Assembly (NCBI GenBank): GCA_021774195.1
Contig: JAJFJJ010000099.1
Coordinates: 1-33,596 of the forward strand
Length of the DNA: 33,596 nt
Direction: 5' to 3'
DNA from: Nitrosomonas sp.
GTDB lineage: Bacteria; Pseudomonadota; Gammaproteobacteria; Burkholderiales; Nitrosomonadaceae
Below the pieces are notes generated by a model that made no database searches, had not been told where the DNA came from, and saw nothing but the letters and a program-made list of their open reading frames with translations. Positions 11,833 to 23,020 of the stretch are shown piece by piece (the stretch's first letter is position 1; each line of letters starts with the position of its first letter). The position numbers and the translations under genes are program-made.

Positions 11833-12061
11833 TTAACCTGAACTTTTCAGTTGGGTAGTACTTGGCGTTCATTGATCTTTAATTTTGGCCAGAAGCAATG
11901 AGGTGCGCGAGATATTGCAACACAGCAAAAGATAAAGAACAGTGTGCTATAAGCATCATAGCGTGGTTCACCTTTAGGGTACGTGACATCTGACAAAATA
12001 TTTGTTTCATTTCATAAGACTGGCCAATGCCGAAGCGATCAACTGAGAATTTTAGGTTTAA
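11833..12061 (+). repeat. Copy 2 of the 230-240-bp miniature element
   Basis: Terminal inverted repeats: left 11833-11853 (TTAACCTGAACTTTTCAGTTG, 21 positions, compare the cleaner left end of copy 3) and right 12040-12061 ending GAATTTTAGGTTTAA. Internal landmarks AGCAAAAGATAAAGAACAG, GTGCTATAAGCATCATAGCG and ACAAAATATTTGTTT are shared almost exactly with 16924-17162. Non-coding. Confidence 0.8.
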
Positions 12062-12719: not shown

Positions 12720-12743
12720 AGTATATCAAGTAGACGGAGTACT
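12720..12743 (+). repeat. Solo terminal repeat of the nested-hairpin family
   Basis: This short segment (ATATCAAGTAGACGGAGTACT) resembles the right terminal repeat of the element at 22686-22954 (ATATTAAGTTGAAGGAGTACT), matching at about 18 of 21 positions. It sits between the hydrolase start codon and the next element. Confidence 0.5.
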
Positions 12744-12744
12744 G

Positions 12745-13008
12745 GTACTCTATCAATTTGATATTGCCGGGTACAGTGATCCTGTCAGTGTTCATGGCAA
12801 GGCGTGCCATGCAGGGAATAGTCGTTCTATTTCCAAAAGGCACAACGCCGTCCATGTGCGCTGACAGGCTCACCCAAAGGGCGCTACAGTGTTGTCCTGC
12901 AATCGCGTTGCAGTACTTGAAAAGGGAATAACCCTTTCCTGTGTACTGCGCCTTATTGCAAAACACCACGGTAACGCTGTACTCGGCAATATCATATTGA
13001 TAGAGTAC
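12745..13008. repeat. Nested-hairpin miniature element, copy B (264 bp)
   Basis: Terminal inverted repeats of 34 bp (12745-12778 and 12975-13008) match at 31 positions; each begins GTACTCTATCAA reading inward. Inside are two inverted-repeat modules: CCTGTCAG...CTGACAGG, and GTGTTGTCCTGCAA...TTGCAAAACACCAC. They are separated by the linker ending CCCAAAGGGCGCT. The second module has the apex AAGGGAATAACCCTT. Arms, linker and apex are arranged as in the element at 22686-22954. Confidence 0.8.
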
Positions 13009-13010
13009 GT

Positions 13011-13190
13011 ATCTCTTGCATTTAATATTTCAGGGACATTTTGTGATCGCCCTGTGGGTTAGCTTTTCAGCGCCACTGGCGGCGTTAGGTCTCTTGATAA
13101 GGGAATGCCCCCTTGCCTGTAAGATCTGCATTGCCAGTAAACTCTGAAAAGCTAACTGTACCCTAAAATATCAAGTTAAAGGAGTGCTAG
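13011..13190 (+). repeat. Nested-hairpin miniature element, copy C (about 180 bp)
   Basis: Right terminal repeat 13161-13190 (ends TTAAAGGAGTGCTAG) matches copy A. The left terminal repeat near 13011-13036 is degenerate (CATTTAATATTTCAGGG). It contains a single hairpin module with arms GTTAGCTTTTCAG (near 13057) and CTGAAAAGCTAAC (near 13143), the same arms as in copy A. Its right end supplies the stop codon of the truncated hydrolase. Confidence 0.75.
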
Positions 13191-13601: not shown

Positions 13602-15152
13602 TTAACGAATAAAATGATCCAACCCCATTGTATCCACAATCATTCGTCGATAATGCTCAGATTTTCTTATTTGCAGTTGTTCAAGTGGATTAAGGTTGTC
13701 GGTCAGAAGCACACCTTTAGATTGATCTATTGTTAAAAGTCGTTGTTTTAACCAATTTCGCTGTGAAAAATTTAGTGCGCTTTGTTCTATACTAATCGCA
13801 TGGTTGCTAGCTAAAAAGATAAAGTCATTAAAATCTCCATCTGGAGTGGAAATATAAACTTGCTGGTGAGAAAAAGCTTGCGCCAATGTCTTTGAGACCG
13901 AAGCCAAGGCTACATTGTTACCATCTTCAAAGAAAGCCACAAAATTTAATGCTAGTATTCCTTGTTCTGAAAGTAAAGAACGTAATTGGAGCATGGTTTC
14001 AACAGTTAATAAGTGAACCGGCTCTGAACCACCAGTGAAAACATCAAGGATGATCAAGTCATAGGTGTCTTTGAGTTGGCGGATTTCATACCGCGCATCA
14101 CCGATAATTGTTTTGCCTGTCGGTGTGAAATCAAAATATTCTCGTGCTGCATGGGCAACTGCTGGATCAATTTCTAACGTGTCGGTGATGATGCCTTTTT
14201 CTTGTAGTGTCATGGCCATATGTCCGGCACCTTGACCAACCAGCAAAGCACGTTCCATATTTGGAGCCATAGACGGAATTAAGTTCACAATCTCTTGATA
14301 AGTAAGAACGTTCTCCCCGTGACTAATGCTGGCTGCACCAATCGTTGAAGCGTCAACAGTTAGTAAGCGATAATTATCTTCCGGCTTATCAATAACGCGT
14401 ACCCAGCCATATAGGCTTTCTTGCTCGAAGCGCGTCTGAAAAAGATCATCGTTAGAAAAATCATTACCTGAATTGGCAATAAAAGGTAATAAAAATAGCC
14501 CCGTGACGAACAATACGATAACCGGGGGCAAAGCAAGTGTTAATCTCAAACGGTGTCGCTCAAAATAAGTTACGCCCAATGCCAGAATAAATAAAGCAAC
14601 ACCCAGGCCCATAAAGATTTCGCGGGAACCGACTTGGGGAAATAAATAAAAGCCCAGGAATAGTGTTCCAATGACACTGCCGACGGTGCTTACCGCATAA
14701 ATAGAGCCGGCACTAGCGCCCACACCTTCTAAACTTGAAGTAGCTAATTTGACTGCGAAAGGTCCAATCATACCGAGCATAAATAGGCTTGGTGTAAACA
14801 AAACAAGGGTGCTGACAAAAGTACCCATGCGTAAGCCTAAGGGGTCAGTGGCCAACAAGACCGGACCAGTCAACCAAGGAACTAGAAGCGTTAATAAACC
14901 CGATGCTGCAATAATTAGAGCCAACCCAGTTCGCTTTGCCCGGTCAGCCCAGTGACCGCCAACAAAGTATCCTAACGCCAAAGCGATCAATGTAACCGAT
15001 ATAACGGAAGTCCAGACATAAAGGCTGGCGCCGTAGAATGGTGCAATTAGGCGTGTTCCCAGTAGCTCAATCACCATGACTGCCGCTCCTGTTAGGAAAA
15101 CGGTGCAATAAAGCCAGGCCTTACCAAGGACATTAGAAGTTGGAAGGTTCAT
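13602..15152 (-). CDS. Fused multi-spanning membrane / spermidine-synthase-like protein
   Basis: About 516 residues from the ATG at 15152; a longer frame from a GTG at 15266 would overlap the palindrome at 15249-15265, so the shorter start is preferred. The N-terminal ~230 residues hold roughly seven membrane segments (for example LYCTVFLTGAAVMVIELLGTRL, SVISVTLIALALGYFVGG). The C-terminal domain is a Rossmann methyltransferase fold of the SpeE type: LLVGQGAGHMAMTL, TDTLEIDPAV, GDARYEIRQL and YDLIILDVFTGG. The family is annotated as fused MFS/spermidine synthase. Polyamine synthesis is not assured, as the substrate residues are not clearly conserved. It is divergent from the exported His-protein genes and shares their palindrome. 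Confidence 0.8.
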   Translation of the reverse strand: MNLPTSNVLGKAWLYCTVFLTGAAVMVIELLGTRLIAPFYGASLYVWTSVISVTLIALALGYFVGGHWADRAKRTGLALIIAASGLLTLLVPWLTGPVLLATDPLGLRMGTFVSTLVLFTPSLFMLGMIGPFAVKLATSSLEGVGASAGSIYAVSTVGSVIGTLFLGFYLFPQVGSREIFMGLGVALFILALGVTYFERHRLRLTLALPPVIVLFVTGLFLLPFIANSGNDFSNDDLFQTRFEQESLYGWVRVIDKPEDNYRLLTVDASTIGAASISHGENVLTYQEIVNLIPSMAPNMERALLVGQGAGHMAMTLQEKGIITDTLEIDPAVAHAAREYFDFTPTGKTIIGDARYEIRQLKDTYDLIILDVFTGGSEPVHLLTVETMLQLRSLLSEQGILALNFVAFFEDGNNVALASVSKTLAQAFSHQQVYISTPDGDFNDFIFLASNHAISIEQSALNFSQRNWLKQRLLTIDQSKGVLLTDNLNPLEQLQIRKSEHYRRMIVDTMGLDHFIR

Positions 15153-15248
15153 TCTATTTATTTTTATAACCTGTGGCAGTTGAAATTGATTGGATACAAG
15201 TTTGAAAACGTAACCAAGTATTCTAATAACAAACGGGCTTCTGGTGAA

Positions 15249-15265
15249 TGTGACAAATTGTCGCA
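15249..15265. promoter_or_regulatory. Palindromic operator, site a
   Basis: TGTGACA-AAT-TGTCGCA, one mismatch between half-sites. It lies 96 bases before the ATG of the membrane/spermidine-synthase-like gene on the - strand. Same form as five other sites in the next 3 kb. Confidence 0.6.
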
Positions 15266-15317
15266 CTTAGAGACGGCGACTAATAAAAACAATGATAAGT
15301 GTTGTGTTTATAGATGA

Positions 15318-15334
15318 TGCGGCATTATGCCACA
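15318..15334. promoter_or_regulatory. Palindromic operator, site b
   Basis: TGCGGCA-TTA-TGCCACA, one mismatch between half-sites. It is followed by TTG as in the other sites. Lies in the divergent intergenic region, first of three sites at roughly 230-bp spacing on the side facing the gene at 15949. Confidence 0.55.
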
Positions 15335-15418
15335 TTGCTTTTGGAGGATTCCTGAGTGATAGTGAATAAAGCAACGTATCAACACAAAATTAAATGATGT
15401 AAACAGCTTTCCCTCCGG

Positions 15419-15509
15419 GAGTGTTAAGAAATGGAAAACAAAATTATTTGATTGCTCCGGTTACTGCTTAATTAATCAAATCCTGTTAAAAGTACATTTC
15501 TTAACACTC
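15419..15509. repeat. Long-looped inverted repeat between operator sites b and c
   Basis: Perfect 15-bp arms: GAGTGTTAAGAAATG (15419-15433) and CATTTCTTAACACTC (15495-15509). A nested pair ATTTGATT and AATCAAAT lies inside. A related pair follows the next operator. It could be an RNA hairpin or a small mobile repeat. Confidence 0.7.
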
Positions 15510-15539
15510 TTTTTATTACGTTGATGCGATTAATTTTAC

Positions 15540-15556
15540 TGCGGCATTATGACACA
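15540..15556. promoter_or_regulatory. Palindromic operator, site c
   Basis: TGCGGCA-TTA-TGACACA, a degenerate member of the set, 222 bases after site b and identical to it over the first twelve positions. Confidence 0.5.
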
Positions 15557-15614
15557 TTGTTTCTTGGCTGTTTTTGGGCGATAGTAAAGATTGAACTAGG
15601 TTGAAATAAATGTT

Positions 15615-15660
15615 GATGTGACGATCCCTCCCTCACTGATGTGACGATCCCTCCCTCACT
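15615..15660 (+). repeat. Tandem direct repeat, two 23-bp units
   Basis: Two exact copies of a 23-bp unit starting GATGTGACGATCCC (15615-15637 and 15638-15660). No further copies, so not a CRISPR array. It lies between operator site c and the second long inverted repeat. Confidence 0.85.
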
Positions 15661-15758
15661 GGAGTGTTAAGAAAAAAGTAATAAAGGATTGTTAGTTTTT
15701 GTTTGAAATTTTCTTAATGATTAATCTGAGTAGTAGCACAGCTTCTTAATACTCCAGT
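15658..15758. repeat. Second long-looped inverted repeat before operator site d
   Basis: Arms ACTGGAGTGTTAAGAA (15658-15673) and TTCTTAATACTCCAGT (15743-15758) match at 15 of 16. The arm core GGAGTGTTAAGAA is shared with the repeat at 15419-15509, so the region appears to contain a duplicated operator-plus-inverted-repeat module. A T-run follows the right arm. Confidence 0.65.
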
Positions 15759-15780
15759 TTTTTTTCAATTTAAGAAGACA

Positions 15781-15797
15781 TGCGACATTATGTCGCA
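15781..15797. promoter_or_regulatory. Palindromic operator, site d (perfect)
   Basis: TGCGACA-TTA-TGTCGCA, perfectly symmetrical half-sites, 151 bases before the ATG at 15949. It also fits GNGRCRTTNNGNCGC, the RegR-type box as I remember it. Confidence 0.7.
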
Positions 15798-15948
15798 TTG
15801 TTTTTTTGTCCTTTTTGATAGACAGTAAAAATGTATTCAAAAAAGAATATGGCTAAGTCTATTTAGTTCGAACTGCCAAGTCATGGAAAATCAAGATGTT
15901 CTTTAACCTATGATGAGACAGATAAAATATAAAAGAAAAGGGAAATCT

Positions 15949-16761
15949 ATGAATGTTACTAACACGAAAATAAAGAAGGTTCATCAACGGAATCTGCTTT
16001 CAATCAGTATTGCCTCAGCAGTATTGTTAATGACTATTGGACAAGTGCAAGCGCATACCCGCTTGACTGTTTCGTCAACACCAGAAAGCTCATCGGCACA
16101 TGGCTCTACCTCAACCGAAGTTAATATTCCACATGGTTGTGCGACTAATCCGGTAATAGGTAATGTCTTTTTCTTGCCTGATACTGCAGATGCTATAGTC
16201 CATACTTCTACAGCGAGTAATTTTGATCCTTTTGATGCACCTGAAGGCGCTACAGCGTTAGATCATATGGTTAATCCAGCTTTTATTCGTCTGGTCAAAT
16301 CCAATGATGTATTTGAAACCACAGAATTTATTAAGGATCCACTGGGTAATCCAATCGGTTTTTGGTCCGCAGGTGGAGAAATACCGGCAAGTAATTGGAT
16401 TGGAAGGGTTCCAATGACAATTACTGCAGTCGCCATTCAGCCCACATCTTGCGCCACTTCAATTCGACTAGTTCCTGCTATTGCCAATATCTGTGTTGTG
16501 ACGGGTGTAGATGGAATCGATGGTTCAGATTCAGATAATGTGAATGTGGATTTCTGGACTGCGCCAGACATTGGCACAATTTATGACGCGCCAAGCTGGA
16601 GTTATCCAGCGTCATACACGATTACACGCGATTTAGAGAATAATCCACTACCAGCAAGTTGTGGCGATGGGTTCGCTGTTCGTATCGTTCCATCGGCGGC
16701 TCAGGTAAATCGTGATATGCCTGTTAAAGTAAATGGCGAACAGATCTGGCCAATCCCTTAA
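15949..16761 (+). CDS. Exported protein with predicted N-terminal His, paralogue 1
   Basis: About 270 residues from the ATG at 15949, chosen because AAGGGA lies just before it; a longer frame from 15910 has no ribosome binding site. A signal peptide ends at VQA, giving a mature protein that would begin at H36 (HTRLTVSS). Four Cys are conserved with the paralogue at 17271 (in HGC, TSC, NIC, ASC), so two disulfides are likely. The C-terminal block NNPLPASCGDG, then PSAAQVNRDMP and QIWP, is also shared. An N-terminal His after an exported Ala is the layout of YcnI/DUF1775 and other copper proteins, so metal binding is plausible but inferred. No enzyme motif recognised. Confidence 0.75.
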   Translation: MNVTNTKIKKVHQRNLLSISIASAVLLMTIGQVQAHTRLTVSSTPESSSAHGSTSTEVNIPHGCATNPVIGNVFFLPDTADAIVHTSTASNFDPFDAPEGATALDHMVNPAFIRLVKSNDVFETTEFIKDPLGNPIGFWSAGGEIPASNWIGRVPMTITAVAIQPTSCATSIRLVPAIANICVVTGVDGIDGSDSDNVNVDFWTAPDIGTIYDAPSWSYPASYTITRDLENNPLPASCGDGFAVRIVPSAAQVNRDMPVKVNGEQIWPIP

Positions 16762-16782
16762 CGAAATTTCTTCTCGCAACAG

Positions 16783-16822
16783 AATGACTGATATTTCACA
16801 TTAAAAAGAATTGTCAGTCATT
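16783..16822 (+). terminator. Weak hairpin after paralogue 1
   Basis: Arms AATGACTGA and TCAGTCATT (9 bp) around a 22-base loop, about 20 bases after the stop codon. No T-run, so only a weak candidate terminator or RNA 3' stabiliser. Confidence 0.3.
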
Positions 16823-16874
16823 TCATTGATAGTTATTAGTGTGAATATTGGAGTCTAGTTTTCTATTGTGTCGG

Positions 16875-16891
16875 TGCGACATTTTGTCACA
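16875..16891. promoter_or_regulatory. Palindromic operator, site e
   Basis: TGCGACA-TTT-TGTCACA, one mismatch between half-sites. It lies 379 bases before the ATG at 17271, with a 239-bp miniature element in between; without that element the distance would be 140 bases. Confidence 0.65.
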
Positions 16892-16923
16892 TTGTCATCT
16901 TAAATAATTAGCAGCATAATAAA

Positions 16924-17162
16924 TTAACCTAGAATCCTCAGTTGGATGGTGCTTAGAGTGCATTGTCGTTTATTTTTGGCAAGACGCAGTGAGAAGTGAA
17001 CGAGTTCACAACGAAGTGCAACGCAGCAAAAGATAAAGAACAGTGTGCTATAAGCATCATAGCGTAGCTCACCTTTAGGGTGTATGGCATTTGACAAAAT
17101 ATTTGTTTTGTTTCATAAGACTAGACATTTCTGAAGCGATCAACTGAGGATTTTAGGATTAA
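16924..17162 (+). repeat. Copy 3 of the 230-240-bp miniature element
   Basis: Terminal inverted repeats 16924-16944 (TTAACCTAGAATCCTCAGTTG is its 21 positions) and 17141-17162 (ends GAGGATTTTAGGATTAA), matching at about 20 of 22. Inner sequence follows copies 1 and 2. It has no transposase. It sits in the leader of the gene at 17271. Confidence 0.85.
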
Positions 17163-17270
17163 GGTAGACGGTAGTGTATACCTAATGCTTAGATGAAAGT
17201 TGGCGCAATAGTGCTGCTAACTTATTTATGACAATAAAAGATTTAAAAAATTGAGGAAAATGACTTAGAT

Positions 17271-18020
17271 ATGAGAACATTAAATAAATTCAAGCTAGTA
17301 GCGTTTTCATTAACTGCTGTCATGATGATAGGTGCAACACAAAGTACTTTTGCACATACTCGTTTCAATGTGTCGTCACAAACTGAAGGGGTTCGAGATA
17401 TTAACCATATCATCATTACTCATTCATGTAATGATAGTTCTAGCACAATTGGAACATCGGTAGTTTTCCCGGATGGTGTTGATTCTACTATTCTAGTTGA
17501 CGGGCAGGCACATGATGGACAAATACTCGATTACCTAACAAATTATGGTAATAATATTCAATTAATTCTGGATCGATCAGCATTCGACTTGATGGAAGAA
17601 AAAATTGTTGCTGGCAACGTCGTTGGTTACTGGGCGGGTGGTGGGCCGGGTATGCCAAATAATTTAAATGCGACCACGTCTTTCAGGCATACAGCAGCTG
17701 GTATTGAACCGACATCCTGCGCAAGTAGTGTTGCGGTTAAAGTGTCGATTGCTGATATTTGTACGGTTACCGGTACCGATGGTTTTAACGATGATGTTGT
17801 TAGATTGTGGACACATAATGACTTGGGTACACCTTTTGATCGTGTAAGTGATACTGATAATGGACCTGCAACATTCACCATTACGCGTGATCTGACAAAT
17901 AACCCACTACCTGATTCATGTGGTGATGGTGTTACTGTAGAAATTAAGCCATCTGCTGCACAGATTAACCGTGATATGCCAATTGTTATTGACGGTCAGC
18001 AAATTTGGCCAGCAAATTAA
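17271..18020 (+). CDS. Exported protein with predicted N-terminal His, paralogue 2
   Basis: A 249-residue paralogue of the protein at 15949. The signal peptide (VAFSLTAVMMIGATQSTFA) gives a mature start at H29 (HTRFNVSS). The four Cys (THSC, TSC, DIC, DSC) align with those of paralogue 1, as do GYWAGGGPGMPNN (against GFWSAGGEIPASN) and the C-terminal NNPLPDSCGDG, PSAAQINRDMP, QIWP. The ribosome binding site is unclear: GAGG lies 14 bases upstream, next to a minimal ATG-ACT-TAG. Probable periplasmic metal-binding role, inferred from the N-terminal His only. Confidence 0.75.
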   Translation: MRTLNKFKLVAFSLTAVMMIGATQSTFAHTRFNVSSQTEGVRDINHIIITHSCNDSSSTIGTSVVFPDGVDSTILVDGQAHDGQILDYLTNYGNNIQLILDRSAFDLMEEKIVAGNVVGYWAGGGPGMPNNLNATTSFRHTAAGIEPTSCASSVAVKVSIADICTVTGTDGFNDDVVRLWTHNDLGTPFDRVSDTDNGPATFTITRDLTNNPLPDSCGDGVTVEIKPSAAQINRDMPIVIDGQQIWPAN

Positions 18021-18038
18021 GTTTTTAAGTTAGTTAGT

Positions 18039-18068
18039 ATGAACGGGCATGTAAACATGCTTGTTCAT
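18039..18068 (+). terminator. Hairpin after paralogue 2
   Basis: ATGAACGGGCATG-TAAA-CATGCTTGTTCAT folds into a 13-bp stem with two G-U pairs, 18 bases after the stop codon. It lacks a clear T-run, so Rho-independent termination is uncertain. Confidence 0.45.
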
Positions 18069-18171
18069 CTCATGTTGAAAATAACTGTTTCTCGATTATC
18101 CTCTACTTCCACGTCAAATAACTTGAACGTAGTAATTCAAGTTCATACGTTTTTATAAAGGGTTAAATAGG

Positions 18172-18188
18172 TGCGACAATTTGTCGCA
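18172..18188. promoter_or_regulatory. Palindromic operator, site f (perfect)
   Basis: TGCGACA-ATT-TGTCGCA, perfectly symmetrical half-sites, 128 bases before the ATG at 18317 and presumably controlling the run of genes that starts there. Confidence 0.7.
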
Positions 18189-18316
18189 TTGCTATTTCTT
18201 TGCCTGAACCAGATAATATTTATAATTAGTAGAAGGTACTATTTACAACCTTCTGACGGATAAGGTAGAGCGGAAATGACGCGCCATTAGACATTAAACT
18301 TTAAGAGACAACGACA

Positions 18317-18796
18317 ATGCAACAACTGTTCTTTAAGAAATATATATTAGCCGCTATTTTAGTTTGTTTAGTTAGTTATACTAGTGTCAGTAGTGCACAT
18401 ACGGCTGGCGCGACACTTGATCCTGAAGGTAATGTTAGAAGCTTTACAGGTATGGCATTTATAACTTGCTTTGATGACGGTAATGGGCCAGCTGATAATA
18501 TTATTGTCAGAGTTAGGGACAACTCTCCACCAGTACCGGGTCTGTTAGTTAATGTGCAAGTTTATAAAGGTAATAAGGTTAATAGTATTACTGATACAGT
18601 TTCAGGTGATGCAGATTTCACGCCATTTATTACCCTTCAAGGAGGGGCAGGAGTCTATTGGCTGTTAGTTAATAAAACGGATGTCGGTGCTAGATCTTTC
18701 GAGATTGAATATCATTGTAATACCGCTGATGGTATACATACGGGAACCGATATTGGCGTAACACAATATGGACTTCCAATCTTTAATGCGCCATAA
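18317..18796 (+). CDS. Small exported protein with predicted N-terminal His
   Basis: A 159-residue protein. The signal peptide (YILAAILVCLVSYTSVSSA) gives a mature start at H28 (HTAGATLDPEG). It has two Cys (FITC, EYHC), probably a disulfide, and a beta-rich sequence with no membrane segment. It does not share the C-terminal block of the two larger His-start proteins, but has the same export and N-terminal layout and the same operator upstream. Family not recognised. It is followed closely by the thioredoxin gene, with which it is likely cotranscribed. Confidence 0.7.
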   Translation: MQQLFFKKYILAAILVCLVSYTSVSSAHTAGATLDPEGNVRSFTGMAFITCFDDGNGPADNIIVRVRDNSPPVPGLLVNVQVYKGNKVNSITDTVSGDADFTPFITLQGGAGVYWLLVNKTDVGARSFEIEYHCNTADGIHTGTDIGVTQYGLPIFNAP

Positions 18797-18851
18797 GCGA
18801 TTATTTCTATAGCATTGCATTGTGCAATGATAGTTAAGTTGGTAAATAATT

Positions 18852-19355
18852 ATGATGAAACAAATTAGATTGTTTTTATTTGTTAGTTTGTTGACTGGCT
18901 TTATGACGCCGGTTGCTGCTGAACATGGCCATGTGCCATCTTCGTGTTCATTGACTGCGCTAGATGGGACACCTGTGCATAATCTGCAGGAGCTGAAAGG
19001 AAAGGTAGTTTACGTTGATTTTTGGGCCTCCTGGTGCCCCCCATGTGTTAGATCGTTTCCATTCTTAAATCAGCTGGAGAATGACCTAAAAGACCAGGGC
19101 TTACAGGTGATTGGTATTAATCTGGATGAAAAGATTGCTGATGCGGAGACATTTCTTGGAAAATATCCAGTTGATTTTGAAATTGCATTGGATCCCGACA
19201 AGCAATGTGCTAAGGATTTTGGTGTCATCGCTATGCCTTCTTCGTATTTAATTGATCGGAAAGGTGTTGTTCGACATGTCCATCAAGGGTTCAGAGCCGA
19301 GGAGGCTGAAGATCTACGCCTTGCTATCGAATATTTGTTAACCGAACCGCTGTAA
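18852..19355 (+). CDS. TlpA/ResA-type periplasmic thioredoxin
   Basis: A 167-residue exported thioredoxin-fold protein. Signal peptide to about residue 23 (PVAA, then EHGHVPSSC). The active site is C62-P-P-C65 in DFWASWCPPCVRSFPF. The insertion INLDEKIADAETFLGKYPVDFEIALDP and the cis-Pro loop AMPSSYLID are typical of TlpA/ResA. These proteins usually reduce disulfides or metal sites in exported proteins, for example during cytochrome or Cu-centre assembly. Here the neighbouring exported proteins have conserved Cys, which makes them possible clients (inference). The same thioredoxin type is known beside DUF4266 and DUF3570 genes. Confidence 0.88.
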   Translation: MMKQIRLFLFVSLLTGFMTPVAAEHGHVPSSCSLTALDGTPVHNLQELKGKVVYVDFWASWCPPCVRSFPFLNQLENDLKDQGLQVIGINLDEKIADAETFLGKYPVDFEIALDPDKQCAKDFGVIAMPSSYLIDRKGVVRHVHQGFRAEEAEDLRLAIEYLLTEPL

Positions 19356-19431
19356 TATCTACATTGAATTCTTAAATCGAGATATTAACTAGACCCTTCA
19401 TACACGCTAATCAATTATTATCCTGAAAACC

Positions 19432-19659
19432 ATGATAGGCACACAAAAAATAGCTGTTTTGTTACTGCTTATGATGGTTTTAGGCCTATCAGGTTGTGTT
19501 AGTTTAGCGCCATGGGAACGAGGAAACCTTGCAAAACCCCATATGGCATTAAACCCAGATCCCATGCAGCGTAGTATGCGCGCGCATAATTATGGTAGTC
19601 GTGAGTCGGGTGCTAGTGATAATGCATCTGGTGGTGGTGGTGGATGTGGCTGTTTCTAA
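19432..19659 (+). CDS. DUF4266 lipoprotein
   Basis: A 75-residue lipoprotein with lipobox LSGC (Cys near residue 22). It carries the DUF4266 pattern: PWERGNLAKPHM, the RAHNYGSRESG segment and the Gly-rich GGGGGCGCF terminus with a Cys pair. Function is unknown; the family occurs next to DUF3570 outer-membrane proteins and TlpA thioredoxins, as here. The terminal CGC motif could bind metal or form a disulfide. It lies 76 bases after the thioredoxin gene. Confidence 0.85.
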   Translation: MIGTQKIAVLLLLMMVLGLSGCVSLAPWERGNLAKPHMALNPDPMQRSMRAHNYGSRESGASDNASGGGGGCGCF

Positions 19660-19829
19660 TCGCCTCTGACTCAAATTTGCTGACTATCAGATCCCAAAAA
19701 AACAATATAAAAAGCAGGTTGTGAATAGTCGTATACGAACTGTATCTTTATCTGATTTCCTGAGACTCGATTGCACTATGGATTGCAGACAATATTCCAA
19801 CGAACTAATGAAGTATTCGAAGTTAGAAA

Positions 19830-22589
19830 ATGTCTGAGGAGGGCAAGGCCAGTCTGAACAAAGAATTGTACAATTCTAATCAGCAAAAGGCATCAAATAA
19901 AAGTAATGGCGTATTACAAGCGTTAACCTCTGCAGCGTTGGTTTTGCCTGGTTTGCTTCTTACCTCGGCTGAGGCCGCTGATGCTAATCTAGATAGTTTC
20001 AGTTTTCAATATAATCGTTTTCAGGAGGGTAAACGTAAACTCTTTACCGTACCGAATAATTTAAATCCGATACAGGCAGACGTTATTCAAGCTTCTGGAA
20101 ATGTATCCTTGACCGACCGTGTGAAGTTTACCTTTAGTTATACGCGAGATGTATGGTCTGGTGCTACACCGGTTACAACAGCACCCTTAGCCACCAATGG
20201 AAACAGACCCATATTACAAAATTCTCCGACAGGTTTGATTACTGCTGGCGCATCTCCTTTTGTTAATACAAATATTCTTTTGGATCGAGATTTAAATCCG
20301 ATTAGACAAGATCCCTTAACTGGACAAGCCATTGGTAAAGATACCCGTGCAGTAGAGATTCTTTCCTCTGCCTCGCCTGAGGTACGTAACGCAGCTGATC
20401 TTGGTTTGGGGTATGAATGGAATGAAGCGGCATTGAATGTTGGTGGCGGACTTTCTGTAGAGAATGATTATAAATCAAGCTACGGTAATGTGAGTGGACG
20501 TCTAGATTTTAACCAAAAATTGACCAGTGCAAAATTTGGTTTTGGCTATACCAGCAGTGAGACATCCGCTATTCTCGATCATGATATCGTGCCTTACTTG
20601 ACGAGAACCGCTTTCTCCAACCAGATTGAAAGTCGTGGTGGATCAGAAATATTGCATGGTAAGCGCCAGGACTGGTCAGCAAATATTGGTCTAACCCAAA
20701 TTCTAGGCAAAAATTCACTTATTGATGCCAATATTGGTTATACCTATAGTAATGGTTTTATGGAAAACCCTTATAAAGCCATGACGGTCATTTTCGTCGA
20801 TCCAGAATCTTTAAATAATAATCTGGATACACCAATTACGGGTGATGTGCGAGCACTGTTGGAACAACGACCGAACAAACGCAATCAAGTGGCGATCAGT
20901 GCGCGATATATTCAACATATTAGTCTTCTAGACGCTGCACTGCATCTGAACTATAAATTTTCTACTGATGACTGGGGAATAAATACCAATACGTTTACGG
21001 CGAATTGGATACAGCCATTTGGCAGTGGTTGGACGATTACCCCGCGAATTCGTTACCATTCACAAGATGCGGCAAATTTTTATCAACCATTTATATTTTC
21101 CCAGCAGACATTCAATACAAATGCGGTAGACGTGTTAGGACGGCAGATTTGGGAGGATGCAATCAATCCGGATATACAGTTTGTACGTGATGAAAATTTT
21201 AATCTGCTTGATAGTGATGGGAATTTAGTTGATGAGTCATTGCTAAACGTACAACCCAAAACGATTCCTTTTGATGGCGAAAAACTGCCGGATAGTTTCT
21301 CTAGTGATCATCGCCTATCAGGATTTGGAACGCTCAGTGGTGGCGTGACGTTAAACAAGCAACTTGCCAAAGGCATCGTGCTGCAAGGCGGGTTTGAATA
21401 CTTTACACGGCAAAGTGCGTTACAAATTGGTGGAGATAGTGGGGGCAGCTTTGGCGATTTTGATTTTTATGTCGCCAGTGGTGCAATTAGAATTAATATA
21501 GAGAAATTGAATTTTGCCAACACCGGTGGTGGACTCGGGATTGAAAGTGGCGTTAGTGCGGATAGTCACGATCATGCGGGTCATACCAACAATAACCATC
21601 ATCATGGTGGCCATGTGCCCGCAGGCGTGATGTCTGGCCATATGTTGGATAATGCTGGCGATTTCATGTTTGGCTATCGTTTTATGTATGGCCGTATGGG
21701 TGGCGACATATTGAATGGTGCTGGTGCGGCCAATGATTTGGAAATCGTCAGTCAAGCTTGTAGTGATGCCACAAATTGCCGCTTTACACCCACCTACATG
21801 CGAATGAAAATGCATATGCTTAATATCATGTATGCACCGACCAATTGGTTGAATTTGATGTTGATGCCGAAATTCGTTGATATGGAGATGAATATTCGCG
21901 AATTATCTGGACGTCCGCCACCACAACCGGGTGTTCACGAGCATACTGGTATTGCTGGACATGCCACAGGTGGCGTAGGCGATACCATGATGTCTTCATT
22001 GATCAAATTGTATGAAACCCCAGGGCATCGATTGCATATGGGGCTTGGGTTGAGTGCGCCAACGGGAAATGTCGGTGTAGAATTTCGGCGCGTATTTCAA
22101 ATTGATGGCGGCCTGGTTCACTTTGGTATGCAGTTGGGAAGTGGTACATGGGATTTTTTGCCCAGTCTGACTTATAGTGGTGATCATAAACGCTGGACTT
22201 GGGGTGCGCAACTGAATGGTGTCAAGCGCATGGAAAATCAGAATAAATCGGGCTATCGTTTGGGTGATGTCATTCAAGCGACTACTTGGGGTGGCTATAA
22301 TCTGACTAAGTGGTTGTCCGCCTCAGTGCGGGGCATTTATACCAAGCAAGGCGCTATACATGGTGATTTCAACGCATTTAACGGACGTTCTGGCCCGATG
22401 GACTTTCCTACCAACCAAGGTGGGCAATTTTGGGATATTGGGCTTGGTATTACCGCTTCTGTCCCGAGTGGTAAATTTGCCGGCAATAGCCTGAGTGTTG
22501 AATGGCTGCAACCGCTACGAAATGATGTTAATGGCTTTCAGCTCGAACGAAAAGGCGCGTTGGCTGCAGCTTGGAATTACCATTTCTAA
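19830..22589 (+). CDS. DUF3570-type outer-membrane protein fused to a second barrel-like domain
   Basis: A 919-residue exported protein. A long signal region ends near SAEAADANLDSF. The first ~570 residues look like a DUF3570 barrel: SFSFQYNRFQEGKRKLF at the start and many alternating strands (NVSLTDRVKFTFSYTRDVW). A His-rich linker follows (DHAGHTNNNHHHGGHVPAG). The last ~330 residues resemble the MetA-pathway/transporter outer-membrane family: FGYRFMYGRMGG, MKMHMLNIMYAPTNWL, LHMGLGLSAPTGNV, QLGSGTWDFLPSLTY, and a terminal aromatic (AWNYHF) as expected for a barrel. The second half is rich in Met and His. It may be one large barrel or two. Role in metal uptake or export is inferred. Confidence 0.75.
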   Translation: MSEEGKASLNKELYNSNQQKASNKSNGVLQALTSAALVLPGLLLTSAEAADANLDSFSFQYNRFQEGKRKLFTVPNNLNPIQADVIQASGNVSLTDRVKFTFSYTRDVWSGATPVTTAPLATNGNRPILQNSPTGLITAGASPFVNTNILLDRDLNPIRQDPLTGQAIGKDTRAVEILSSASPEVRNAADLGLGYEWNEAALNVGGGLSVENDYKSSYGNVSGRLDFNQKLTSAKFGFGYTSSETSAILDHDIVPYLTRTAFSNQIESRGGSEILHGKRQDWSANIGLTQILGKNSLIDANIGYTYSNGFMENPYKAMTVIFVDPESLNNNLDTPITGDVRALLEQRPNKRNQVAISARYIQHISLLDAALHLNYKFSTDDWGINTNTFTANWIQPFGSGWTITPRIRYHSQDAANFYQPFIFSQQTFNTNAVDVLGRQIWEDAINPDIQFVRDENFNLLDSDGNLVDESLLNVQPKTIPFDGEKLPDSFSSDHRLSGFGTLSGGVTLNKQLAKGIVLQGGFEYFTRQSALQIGGDSGGSFGDFDFYVASGAIRINIEKLNFANTGGGLGIESGVSADSHDHAGHTNNNHHHGGHVPAGVMSGHMLDNAGDFMFGYRFMYGRMGGDILNGAGAANDLEIVSQACSDATNCRFTPTYMRMKMHMLNIMYAPTNWLNLMLMPKFVDMEMNIRELSGRPPPQPGVHEHTGIAGHATGGVGDTMMSSLIKLYETPGHRLHMGLGLSAPTGNVGVEFRRVFQIDGGLVHFGMQLGSGTWDFLPSLTYSGDHKRWTWGAQLNGVKRMENQNKSGYRLGDVIQATTWGGYNLTKWLSASVRGIYTKQGAIHGDFNAFNGRSGPMDFPTNQGGQFWDIGLGITASVPSGKFAGNSLSVEWLQPLRNDVNGFQLERKGALAAAWNYHF

Positions 22590-22676: not shown

Positions 22677-22685
22677 GAGATTATT

Positions 22686-22954
22686 CTAGTACTCCTTCAA
22701 CTTAATATTTTAGGATGCAGTTAGCTTTTCAGGGTTACTGGCAAGGCAGGCCTTGTAGGCAATGGCCACTTCCTTGTCAAGAGGCCTAACACCGCCAGTG
22801 GCGCTGAAAAGCTAACCCGAAGGGCGCTCACAAGATGTCCCGTCACTGCGTTGCAGCACTTGCCAAGGGAATAACCCTTGTCAGCGTGCTACGCCTTGTG
22901 ACGAAACATCCTGTGAGCGCTGCATCCTAAAATATTAAGTTGAAGGAGTACTAG
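22686..22954. repeat. Nested-hairpin miniature element, copy A (269 bp, perfect termini)
   Basis: The terminal inverted repeats 22686-22720 and 22920-22954 are identical over all 35 positions; they begin CTAGTACTCCTTCAAC reading inward. Possible 3-bp target duplication ATT on both sides; alternatively CTAG is itself the duplicated target. Module 1: arms GTTAGCTTTTCAG (22720-22732) and CTGAAAAGCTAAC (22804-22816). Linker CCCGAAGGGCGCT. Module 2: arms GCGCTCACAAGATGT (22824-22838) and ACATCCTGTGAGCGC (22906-22920), with apex AAGGGAATAACCCTT. No coding capacity. Perfect termini suggest a recent insertion. Confidence 0.9.
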
Positions 22955-23020
22955 ATTAGTAGAAAAATATAGAAACTTTTCGAAGTCTATTTCAAAAAAA
23001 TCTACTAGCGTTCCATCAGC

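Follow-up and report, generated by a model that had tools for sequence, protein, structure and literature searches.

A conserved ammonia-oxidiser gene set that may be part of copper handling for nitrification

The closest described relatives of the locus reported here are clusters that combine ApbE, DUF3570, DUF4266 and a thioredoxin (eLife 2021, PMC8238504). In the part of that paper available to us, DUF3570 is a substrate of ApbE flavinylation, flavinylated proteins have a role in extracytosolic electron transfer, 25 DUF3570-type clusters contain a VIT1 iron transporter, some of the clusters have a DsbD partner, and the function of DUF3570/DUF4266 systems is given as uncertain. YcnI/DUF1775 proteins bind copper (PMC8424229), and the published boxes of RegA/RegR-type regulators are degenerate and mutually dissimilar (PMC5506826, PMC4064962, PMC9147068). 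According to the accessible portion of a 2026 study, most ammonia-oxidising bacteria are without the PcoB/CopB uptake system, unlike many comammox Nitrospira (PMC13374858).

The window analysed here is a stretch of 33,596 nucleotides from Nitrosomonas sp., in which the gene order and coordinates that an earlier note had given for 15949-22589 were confirmed. Three genes for exported proteins come first, all on the + strand: HTRL (15949..16761; the mechanical open reading frame runs from 15910, with an ATG at 15949), HTRF (17271..18020) and the small HTAG (18317..18796). Each has a signal-like N-terminus ending in Ala immediately before His, with the predicted mature start at a His at 16054 (VQA/HTRL), 17355 (TFA/HTRF) and 18398 (SSA/HTAG), in agreement with the N-termini read earlier. 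They are followed on the same strand by a TlpA/ResA-like thioredoxin with WCPPC (18852..19355; Pfam Redoxin 1.1e-27), a DUF4266 lipoprotein with a terminal CxC (19432..19659; ends GGCGCF; Pfam DUF4266 1.3e-17) and a gene at 19830..22589 that fuses a DUF3570 domain (19917-21470; Pfam 6.4e-105), by way of a His-rich linker (about 21563-21616), to a second barrel-like domain (about 21537-22586). The earlier assignment of a CPPC thioredoxin, a DUF4266 protein with a terminal CGC and a DUF3570-type barrel with a His-rich linker holds. That reading did not include the paralogy of HTRL and HTRF, the two fused domains of the barrel gene or ApbE flavinylation. On the - strand, 13602..15266 encodes a membrane protein whose match to spermidine synthase stays below threshold (19.4 vs 22.9 bits); it is a candidate further member of the module, and its relatives occur in HTRF-bearing stretches of nine other genus genomes and also of G345.

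With 36% identity, HTRL and HTRF are paralogues, and profile comparison indicates remote kinship with DUF1775/YcnI, a family of Cu(II)-binding proteins. With hhalign, the alignment of the HTRF profile to three DUF1775 proteins begins at residue 1, spans 42 columns and has E 1.7e-5, and H1 and H23 are aligned in it; the test used only these three DUF1775 sequences, and decoys gave E 0.36 and 0.52. A bridging protein (G470, stretch L170) scores 29.6 bits against the DUF1775 Pfam cut-off of 25 and 1.2e-9 against the HTRF profile, and two Trp columns of HTRF and DUF1775 match up in the alignment made with this bridge. The H23 of the HTRF family is one residue off the DUF1775 Glu position when residues are numbered from the mature start. 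The Pfam DUF1775 model itself (PF07987) did not match HTRL/HTRF at E 1 and had matches in 0 of 9 genomes searched at that threshold. HTRL, HTRF and HTAG matched 0 Pfam families at E 1, hence no LPMO or CopC family; the comparison with YcnI made earlier finds support. The HTRF profile had no credible match among PDB sequences, PADLOC gave no match for HTRF, and neither HTRF nor the HTAG-like protein of G039 matched anything when used as a query on plasmids. AlphaFold2 modelling of HTRF from 10 sequences reached a pLDDT of only 31.8, and therefore no brace geometry is claimed.

His follows Ala, Ser or Gly in 45 distinct mature HTRF-family sequences, and L005 (FT/HTRL) brings the number to 46. 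These complete N-termini point to an N-terminal His on the mature chains, the cleavage site being placed by conservation. The HTRF-family reading frames that did not show this start were fragments, pieces cut at an edge or repeats, apart from a distant relative, which also reads S/H. H23, C25 and three further Cys are kept in 39/39 aligned sequences. The invariance of H1 in alignment A3 is a selected feature because its reading frames were picked for a His start, whereas H23, Cys and Trp played no part in that selection. The conservation alignment excluded one paralogue (G000:C62:8743-9405), which is cut at a contig end and whose readable part is without H1 and H23 (TERSC vs xxHxC elsewhere).

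HTAG is a family separate from HTRL/HTRF, and the His start proposed for all three proteins holds here only in part. Among 32 listed homologues, including one fragment, a count by eye gives 24 with His at the predicted mature start and 8 with Asp in its place (SGA/DEGG, SSA/DDAG), several of these 8 being near-identical. Structure prediction gave a moderate all-beta model (68.8), for which no PDB match was found at E 0.001. HTAG and HTRF domains are joined in one reading frame in G419, and TlpA directly follows HTAG in every genus stretch spanning both. Judged from sequence, a copper-gripping N-terminus is probable on some of the secreted proteins of the module.

The DUF3570 protein of the window carries the [ST]GA[ST] motif described for ApbE flavinylation (PMC8238504, in the part available), as SGAT at 20157..20168; a second site at 20244-20255 reads AGAS. 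A flavin is accordingly predicted on this protein, and ApbE and DUF3570 co-occur exactly across 25 genus genomes (18 with both, 7 with neither). ApbE lies <=3 kb downstream in 13/20 genus DUF3570 entries; that of the window's own genome is on another contig (G000:C142:49806-50612) and so not in the window cluster. The second barrel is Met/His-rich, and its fusion to DUF3570 is a combination rare in the order.

The neighbourhood proposed earlier is conserved: in 17/18 genus genomes having DUF3570, HTAG precedes the DUF3570 domain by 0.9-1.25 kb. HTAG, TlpA, DUF4266, fused DUF3570 and ApbE also occur together in three genomes of other genera (G419, G345 and G039), the first two of which have HTRF in the module as well. 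Four genus genomes (G012, G015, G017 and G022) have HTRF without DUF3570 or ApbE; a contig end truncates G015 and G022 has pieces only, and a completeness of 75-89% in G003, G004, G014 and G015 affects some absences there.

The genes share an operator palindrome, found upstream of HTRL (15781..15797, an exact fit to the RegR box), HTRF (16875..16891, 1 mismatch) and HTAG (18172..18188, exact) and where the divergent gene starts (15249..15265, 1 mismatch); two weaker copies, each with 3 mismatches, are at 15318 and 15540. With up to 3 mismatches allowed and both strands included, we observed 11 window matches to TGCGACAWTWTGTCGCA, spread over 7 places, vs 0.35 expected in shuffles, as the earlier proposal of shared operators would have it; six places fall at 15249-18188 and one (21767) within the DUF3570 gene. 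Across 12 genomes, TGCGACAWTWTGTCGCA lies upstream of 25/29 HTRF-family genes. Upstream of HTRF/HTAG-family genes are 40/98 operator sites vs 0.12 expected by area, a count inflated because paralogous promoters have shared ancestry. Four of the 40 operator stretches examined held no site matched by the search expression. Of four stretches from other genera, three also carry the operator: in L169 and L149 it accompanies the module, and in L170 it precedes the gene of the bridging protein. None was found in L168.

The Pfam scan of operator neighbours covered 20 genes chosen by eye out of 60 stretches, which had been drawn from the site lists in the same way. Metal-related genes near the sites include Cox11/CtaG, a multicopper oxidase, TonB, TonB-dependent receptors, PepSY and CCP/MauG-type cytochromes, which because of this picking are no tested enrichment. 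Other neighbours are a sulfotransferase-like gene, a nucleotidyltransferase-like gene, ClC-type channels, amidohydrolases and unassigned reading frames. Two PEP-CTERM proteins near operator sites (L124 and L075) were suspected CorA/MopE relatives, a kinship to CorA that would have tied the operator to copper. The CorA match of L075 was sub-threshold (E 0.0081), searches of both against PDB sequences gave no CorA match, and a third protein was likewise without a match; the suspected link was rejected.

With slightly less than even confidence, we favour a redox-regulated flavin/thiol outer-membrane module that works with YcnI-like copper binders, its simplest job being reductive copper handling at the surface. 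The TlpA thioredoxin and the CxC lipoprotein DUF4266 would pass electrons to the ApbE-flavinylated DUF3570 outer-membrane barrel. Secreted DUF1775/YcnI-like proteins would hold Cu(II) at the mature N-terminal His, and the DUF3570 barrel, fused to the second Met/His-rich barrel, would work with them. A RegA/PrrA-type regulator would act through the shared palindrome, and copper reduced at the cell surface would feed ammonia monooxygenase and other copper proteins. We infer copper and its reduction as the function, as well as the electron path, the direction of metal flow and the binding of the regulator. A narrower version is doubtful: a RegBA-controlled, flavin-powered outer-membrane Cu(II) reductase with bis-His (H1/H23) capture, reduction by DUF3570 and Cu(I) entry via the fused Met/His-rich barrel. 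If true, it would be a copper-uptake route other than CopB/PcoB.

The main rival, which we consider unlikely, is reductive iron acquisition, with the flavin/thiol barrel as an outer-membrane Fe(III) reductase and the N-His proteins accessory or binding another metal. It is consistent with VIT1 in 25 published clusters (PMC8238504, in the part available), with a Methylosinus plasmid on which a relative of the second barrel adjoins feoB, PepSY, FecR and sigma-factor genes, and with the eye-picked TonB, TonB-dependent receptor and PepSY genes near operator sites. However, HTRF is kin to a copper-binding family, and Cox11/CtaG and the multicopper oxidase, likewise picked by eye, also lie near operator sites. 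The operator does not seem to resemble a Fur box, which we count against iron. The metal reading of the earlier note is partly right: it gains from the kinship of HTRL/HTRF with Cu(II)-binding DUF1775 and loses where the His of HTAG is not general.

The operator resembles a RegA/RegR-type redox box, and a RegA/PrrA-type regulator is the most likely candidate to bind it. The RegR box GNGRCRTTNNGNCGC matches exactly at 15782 only, and the remaining window copies deviate. As a candidate RegA-binding site we note TGCGACAATTTGTCGCA. In three genus genomes (G002, G006 and G009) the palindrome has a regB gene next to it, and a regA-like gene comes after regB; because the palindrome sits between regB and a divergent ClC-type gene in 2/3 of them, it may serve either gene. 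The RegR-like box and the adjoining regBA would also suit low-oxygen extracellular or periplasmic electron transfer, in which a RegBA-controlled flavinylated barrel is the outlet, the secreted proteins serve as structural parts or redox partners, and metal binding is secondary. The extracytosolic role published for flavinylated proteins (PMC8238504, in the part available) and the eye-picked CCP/MauG-type cytochromes near several operator sites point the same way, but this reading leaves unexplained why the HTRF family conserves its His start and H23, and we judge it improbable. Disulfide quality control, in which TlpA and DUF4266 mainly fold Cys-rich HTRF proteins beside an unrelated flavin barrel, fits the four invariant Cys in 39/39 HTRF sequences and the position of TlpA directly after HTAG, but explains neither the exact ApbE/DUF3570 co-occurrence nor the recurrence of the module in other genera and is very unlikely.

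The copper reading remains our preferred one, and this conserved ammonia-oxidiser gene set may be part of copper handling for nitrification. The named genes, the modification motif and the operator make the supply of copper to ammonia monooxygenase a testable question.

Compared with YcnI/DUF1775 (PMC8424229), the HTRF family shares the N-terminal His of the mature chain and 42 alignable first residues, and its H23 and C25 are also present in the three proteobacterial DUF1775 proteins examined. In contrast, HTRF proteins fall below detection by the Pfam model, have no assigned Glu equivalent and are longer, with additional Cys and a C-terminal extension. With respect to the RegBA/PrrBA/RegSR regulon (PMC5506826, PMC4064962, PMC9147068), one window palindrome fits the RegR box and regBA adjoins the palindrome in three genomes, although the published box is less symmetric than the genus palindrome and is one base away from most genus copies, which have a CAATTTG centre. 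With the clusters of PMC8238504, as far as the available part describes them, the window shares DUF3570 with the flavinylation motif, DUF4266 with CxC and a thioredoxin-like gene; ApbE is adjacent there, as in most relatives of the window, whereas the window's own ApbE lies elsewhere in the genome. To that cluster type the window adds the secreted HTRF and HTAG families and the fused second barrel. The module also provides DUF3570/DUF4266 systems with secreted partners that are conserved and with a candidate for their redox regulator.

All six genes were found at the positions proposed in the earlier note. Three encode exported proteins with His at the predicted mature start, HTRL (15949-16761), HTRF (17271-18020) and HTAG (18317-18796), and are followed by genes for a TlpA thioredoxin (18852-19355), a DUF4266 protein (19432-19659) and a DUF3570 barrel fused to a second barrel-like domain (19830-22589). 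Pfam confirmed the thioredoxin, DUF4266 and DUF3570 identities. HTRL, HTRF and HTAG gave no Pfam match at E 1 and nothing credible against NCBIfam; HTRL and HTRF are paralogues with 36% identity. A dispersed repeat of ~140 bp lies between these two genes (16936-17075), and other copies occur at 2193-2332 and 11847-11974 and, elsewhere in this genome, in stretches L068, L074 and L075. The host is, to judge from its genus, a Nitrosomonas-group ammonia oxidiser, and its presumed physiology is taken from that genus.

The proposed association holds across the genus: the DUF3570 domain has HTAG 0.9-1.25 kb upstream of it in 17 of 18 DUF3570-bearing genus genomes, the exception (G019) having only a DUF3570 fragment. 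Genus stretches that run from HTAG to DUF3570 have TlpA and DUF4266 in between; in L015 and L019 HTAG is followed by TlpA without DUF4266 and DUF3570 directly after it, and L016 has both in pieces. Of 41 genomes searched, 22 have HTRF; all 22 belong to the genus (25 genomes), and 16 other genera of the order gave no match. HTAG and DUF3570 each occur in 18 of the 25. Across the order, DUF3570 is present in 14 of 150 genomes; the genus and G039 have frames of at least 900 aa, and those in about nine other genomes span 371-462 aa. G169, a genus member with a complete genome, has the gene split into two overlapping frames of 284 and 706 aa (L153:8295-11011), and the neighbours look intact. The gene set is conserved and coherent, and we regard the module as almost certainly real.

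ApbE and DUF3570 co-occur exactly in the 25 genus genomes (18 with both, 7 with neither), and ApbE lies within 3 kb after DUF3570 in 13 of 20 DUF3570 entries. Entries without it at that distance are mostly contig ends or fragments, plus the window, whose genome has its ApbE on a separate contig, C142. In the window, a 39-nt inverted repeat (22682-22958; 97%, with 199 nt between the arms) separates DUF3570 from the following gene, at the place where relatives have ApbE, and may mark a rearrangement that separated ApbE; similar DNA is found at 12742-13190 and on contig C62 (G000:C62).

Outside the genus, L168 (from G419), L169 (G345) and L149 (G039) each carry TlpA, DUF4266, fused DUF3570, ApbE (identified by BLAST against proteins of the window genome) and a domain that matches the HTAG profile (E 8e-17, 2e-32 and 2e-13, respectively). 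HTRF is present in L168 and L169 and absent from L149, which has another exported protein, starting A/HEPRV. In L168 an HTAG domain (E 1e-16) and an HTRF domain (E 5e-38) are joined in one 368-residue frame, which suggests that HTAG and HTRF work together. The HTRF-family profile matched 6 of 369 class genomes, namely two of the genus, G419, G345, G470 and, weakly, G307.

In a 39-sequence HTRF-family alignment, whose members were chosen for a His start, H1, H23, C25, C122, C136, C189 and W218 are invariant, and W152 and W93 are present in 38 and 36 sequences, respectively. Compared with three DUF1775 proteins, the HTRF profile gave a 42-column match that begins at residue 1 (E 1.7e-5), against E 0.36 and 0.52 for decoys from the HTAG alignment. 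A G470 protein (L170) scores above the DUF1775 cut-off (29.6 vs 25 bits) and matches the HTRF profile at 1.2e-9 over its C-terminal part; alignment via this protein places HTRF W93, C136 and W152 on DUF1775 columns W81, C116 and W123. HTRF is very probably related to DUF1775. According to PMC8424229, B. subtilis YcnI holds Cu(II) with its N-terminal His27 together with Glu50, with Trp137 next to them, and the DUF1775 proteins that lack this Glu come mainly from Proteobacteria. Counting from the mature start, HTRF H23 is one residue off the YcnI Glu position, and it may substitute for the DUF1775 Glu. A further HTRF paralogue of the window genome (G000:C62:8743-9405, L048) is cut at a contig end, with neither H1 nor H23 visible; close to it is a second HTAG gene, for which one stop was reported inside the match frame. 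Paralogous HTRF and HTAG-like genes also flank another exported gene in L049, L051, L052 and L057, which in L049 and L051 resembles, by eye, a HEAT-repeat protein.

The suspected shared operators were recovered as a palindrome upstream of HTRL, HTRF and HTAG in the window. When distinct sites with at most one mismatch were counted in 12 genus genomes, 40 of 98 fell in the 900 bp upstream of a gene of the HTRF or HTAG family, where area alone predicts 0.12; such a site precedes 25 of 29 HTRF and 5 of 18 HTAG genes, and the reversed pattern, as a control, gave one hit in the 12 genomes. Sites also occur in G001 and G021 although these lack HTRF, so the regulon extends further. The palindrome has 11 matches at 6 places in L169 (0.01 expected), two of them between HTAG and HTRF, 7 matches at 4 places in L149 (0.03 expected), and one place in L170, upstream of the bridging gene; it was sought in L168 and not found. 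In G002, G006 and G009 it lies at a gene for a histidine kinase that contains GGSTNPF and HELGTPL, and a gene for a RegA-like regulator comes after it; we take these motifs as marks of RegB and RegA. In the first two genomes, this promoter region is also common to a divergent ClC-type gene. The window site at 15782 fits exactly the B. japonicum RegR box quoted in PMC5506826, which calls RegA-family boxes degenerate and dissimilar and reports no such box in the species it studied. RegA of R. capsulatus binds copper (PMC9147068), an interesting, unproved link. Nitrosomonas is unmentioned among the RegA/PrrA literature matches listed (best 8 of 30). On balance, we lean towards RegA-type control of the module.

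Other exported proteins were seen near the operator. A family with A/HEGxPN at the predicted cleavage point occurs there in four genus genomes (L074:3478-4407, L087:2428-3303, L094:2081-2965 and L117:1933-2805), shares 59-66% identity with the copy in the window genome, and gave no Pfam match for the two members scanned. PEP-CTERM proteins starting A/HIGY or A/HISY do so in three (L124:4344-5138, L085:7391-8206 and L092:3866-4672).

Copper as the cargo is an even bet, and metal reduction by the module is a more tentative proposal. No paper on DUF3570 together with Nitrosomonas or with copper was found in the literature searched, which mostly excludes subscription journals, and no earlier description of the gene combination, barrel fusion or common operator was found. 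In the same literature a single paper has DUF3570 together with DUF4266, and one names Nitrosomonas and ApbE once each. Distant relatives of the second barrel-like domain (25-33% identity) lie on eight Ruegeria, Methylosinus and Methylocystis plasmids; the three plasmid neighbourhoods read lie one each by feoB/PepSY, cytochrome-c maturation and nitrate-transport genes. The parts of the module are relatives of known families. Clustering of DUF4266, DUF3570 and thioredoxin, which the earlier note had called known, is indeed already published, with ApbE (PMC8238504); some of those clusters include DsbD and 25 include VIT1, and the source describes what they do as uncertain. ApbE flavinylates DUF3570 at [S/T]GA[S/T] motifs, as shown there for a Chlorobium luteolum protein, and the window DUF3570 has SGAT at the first such site and AGAS at the second.
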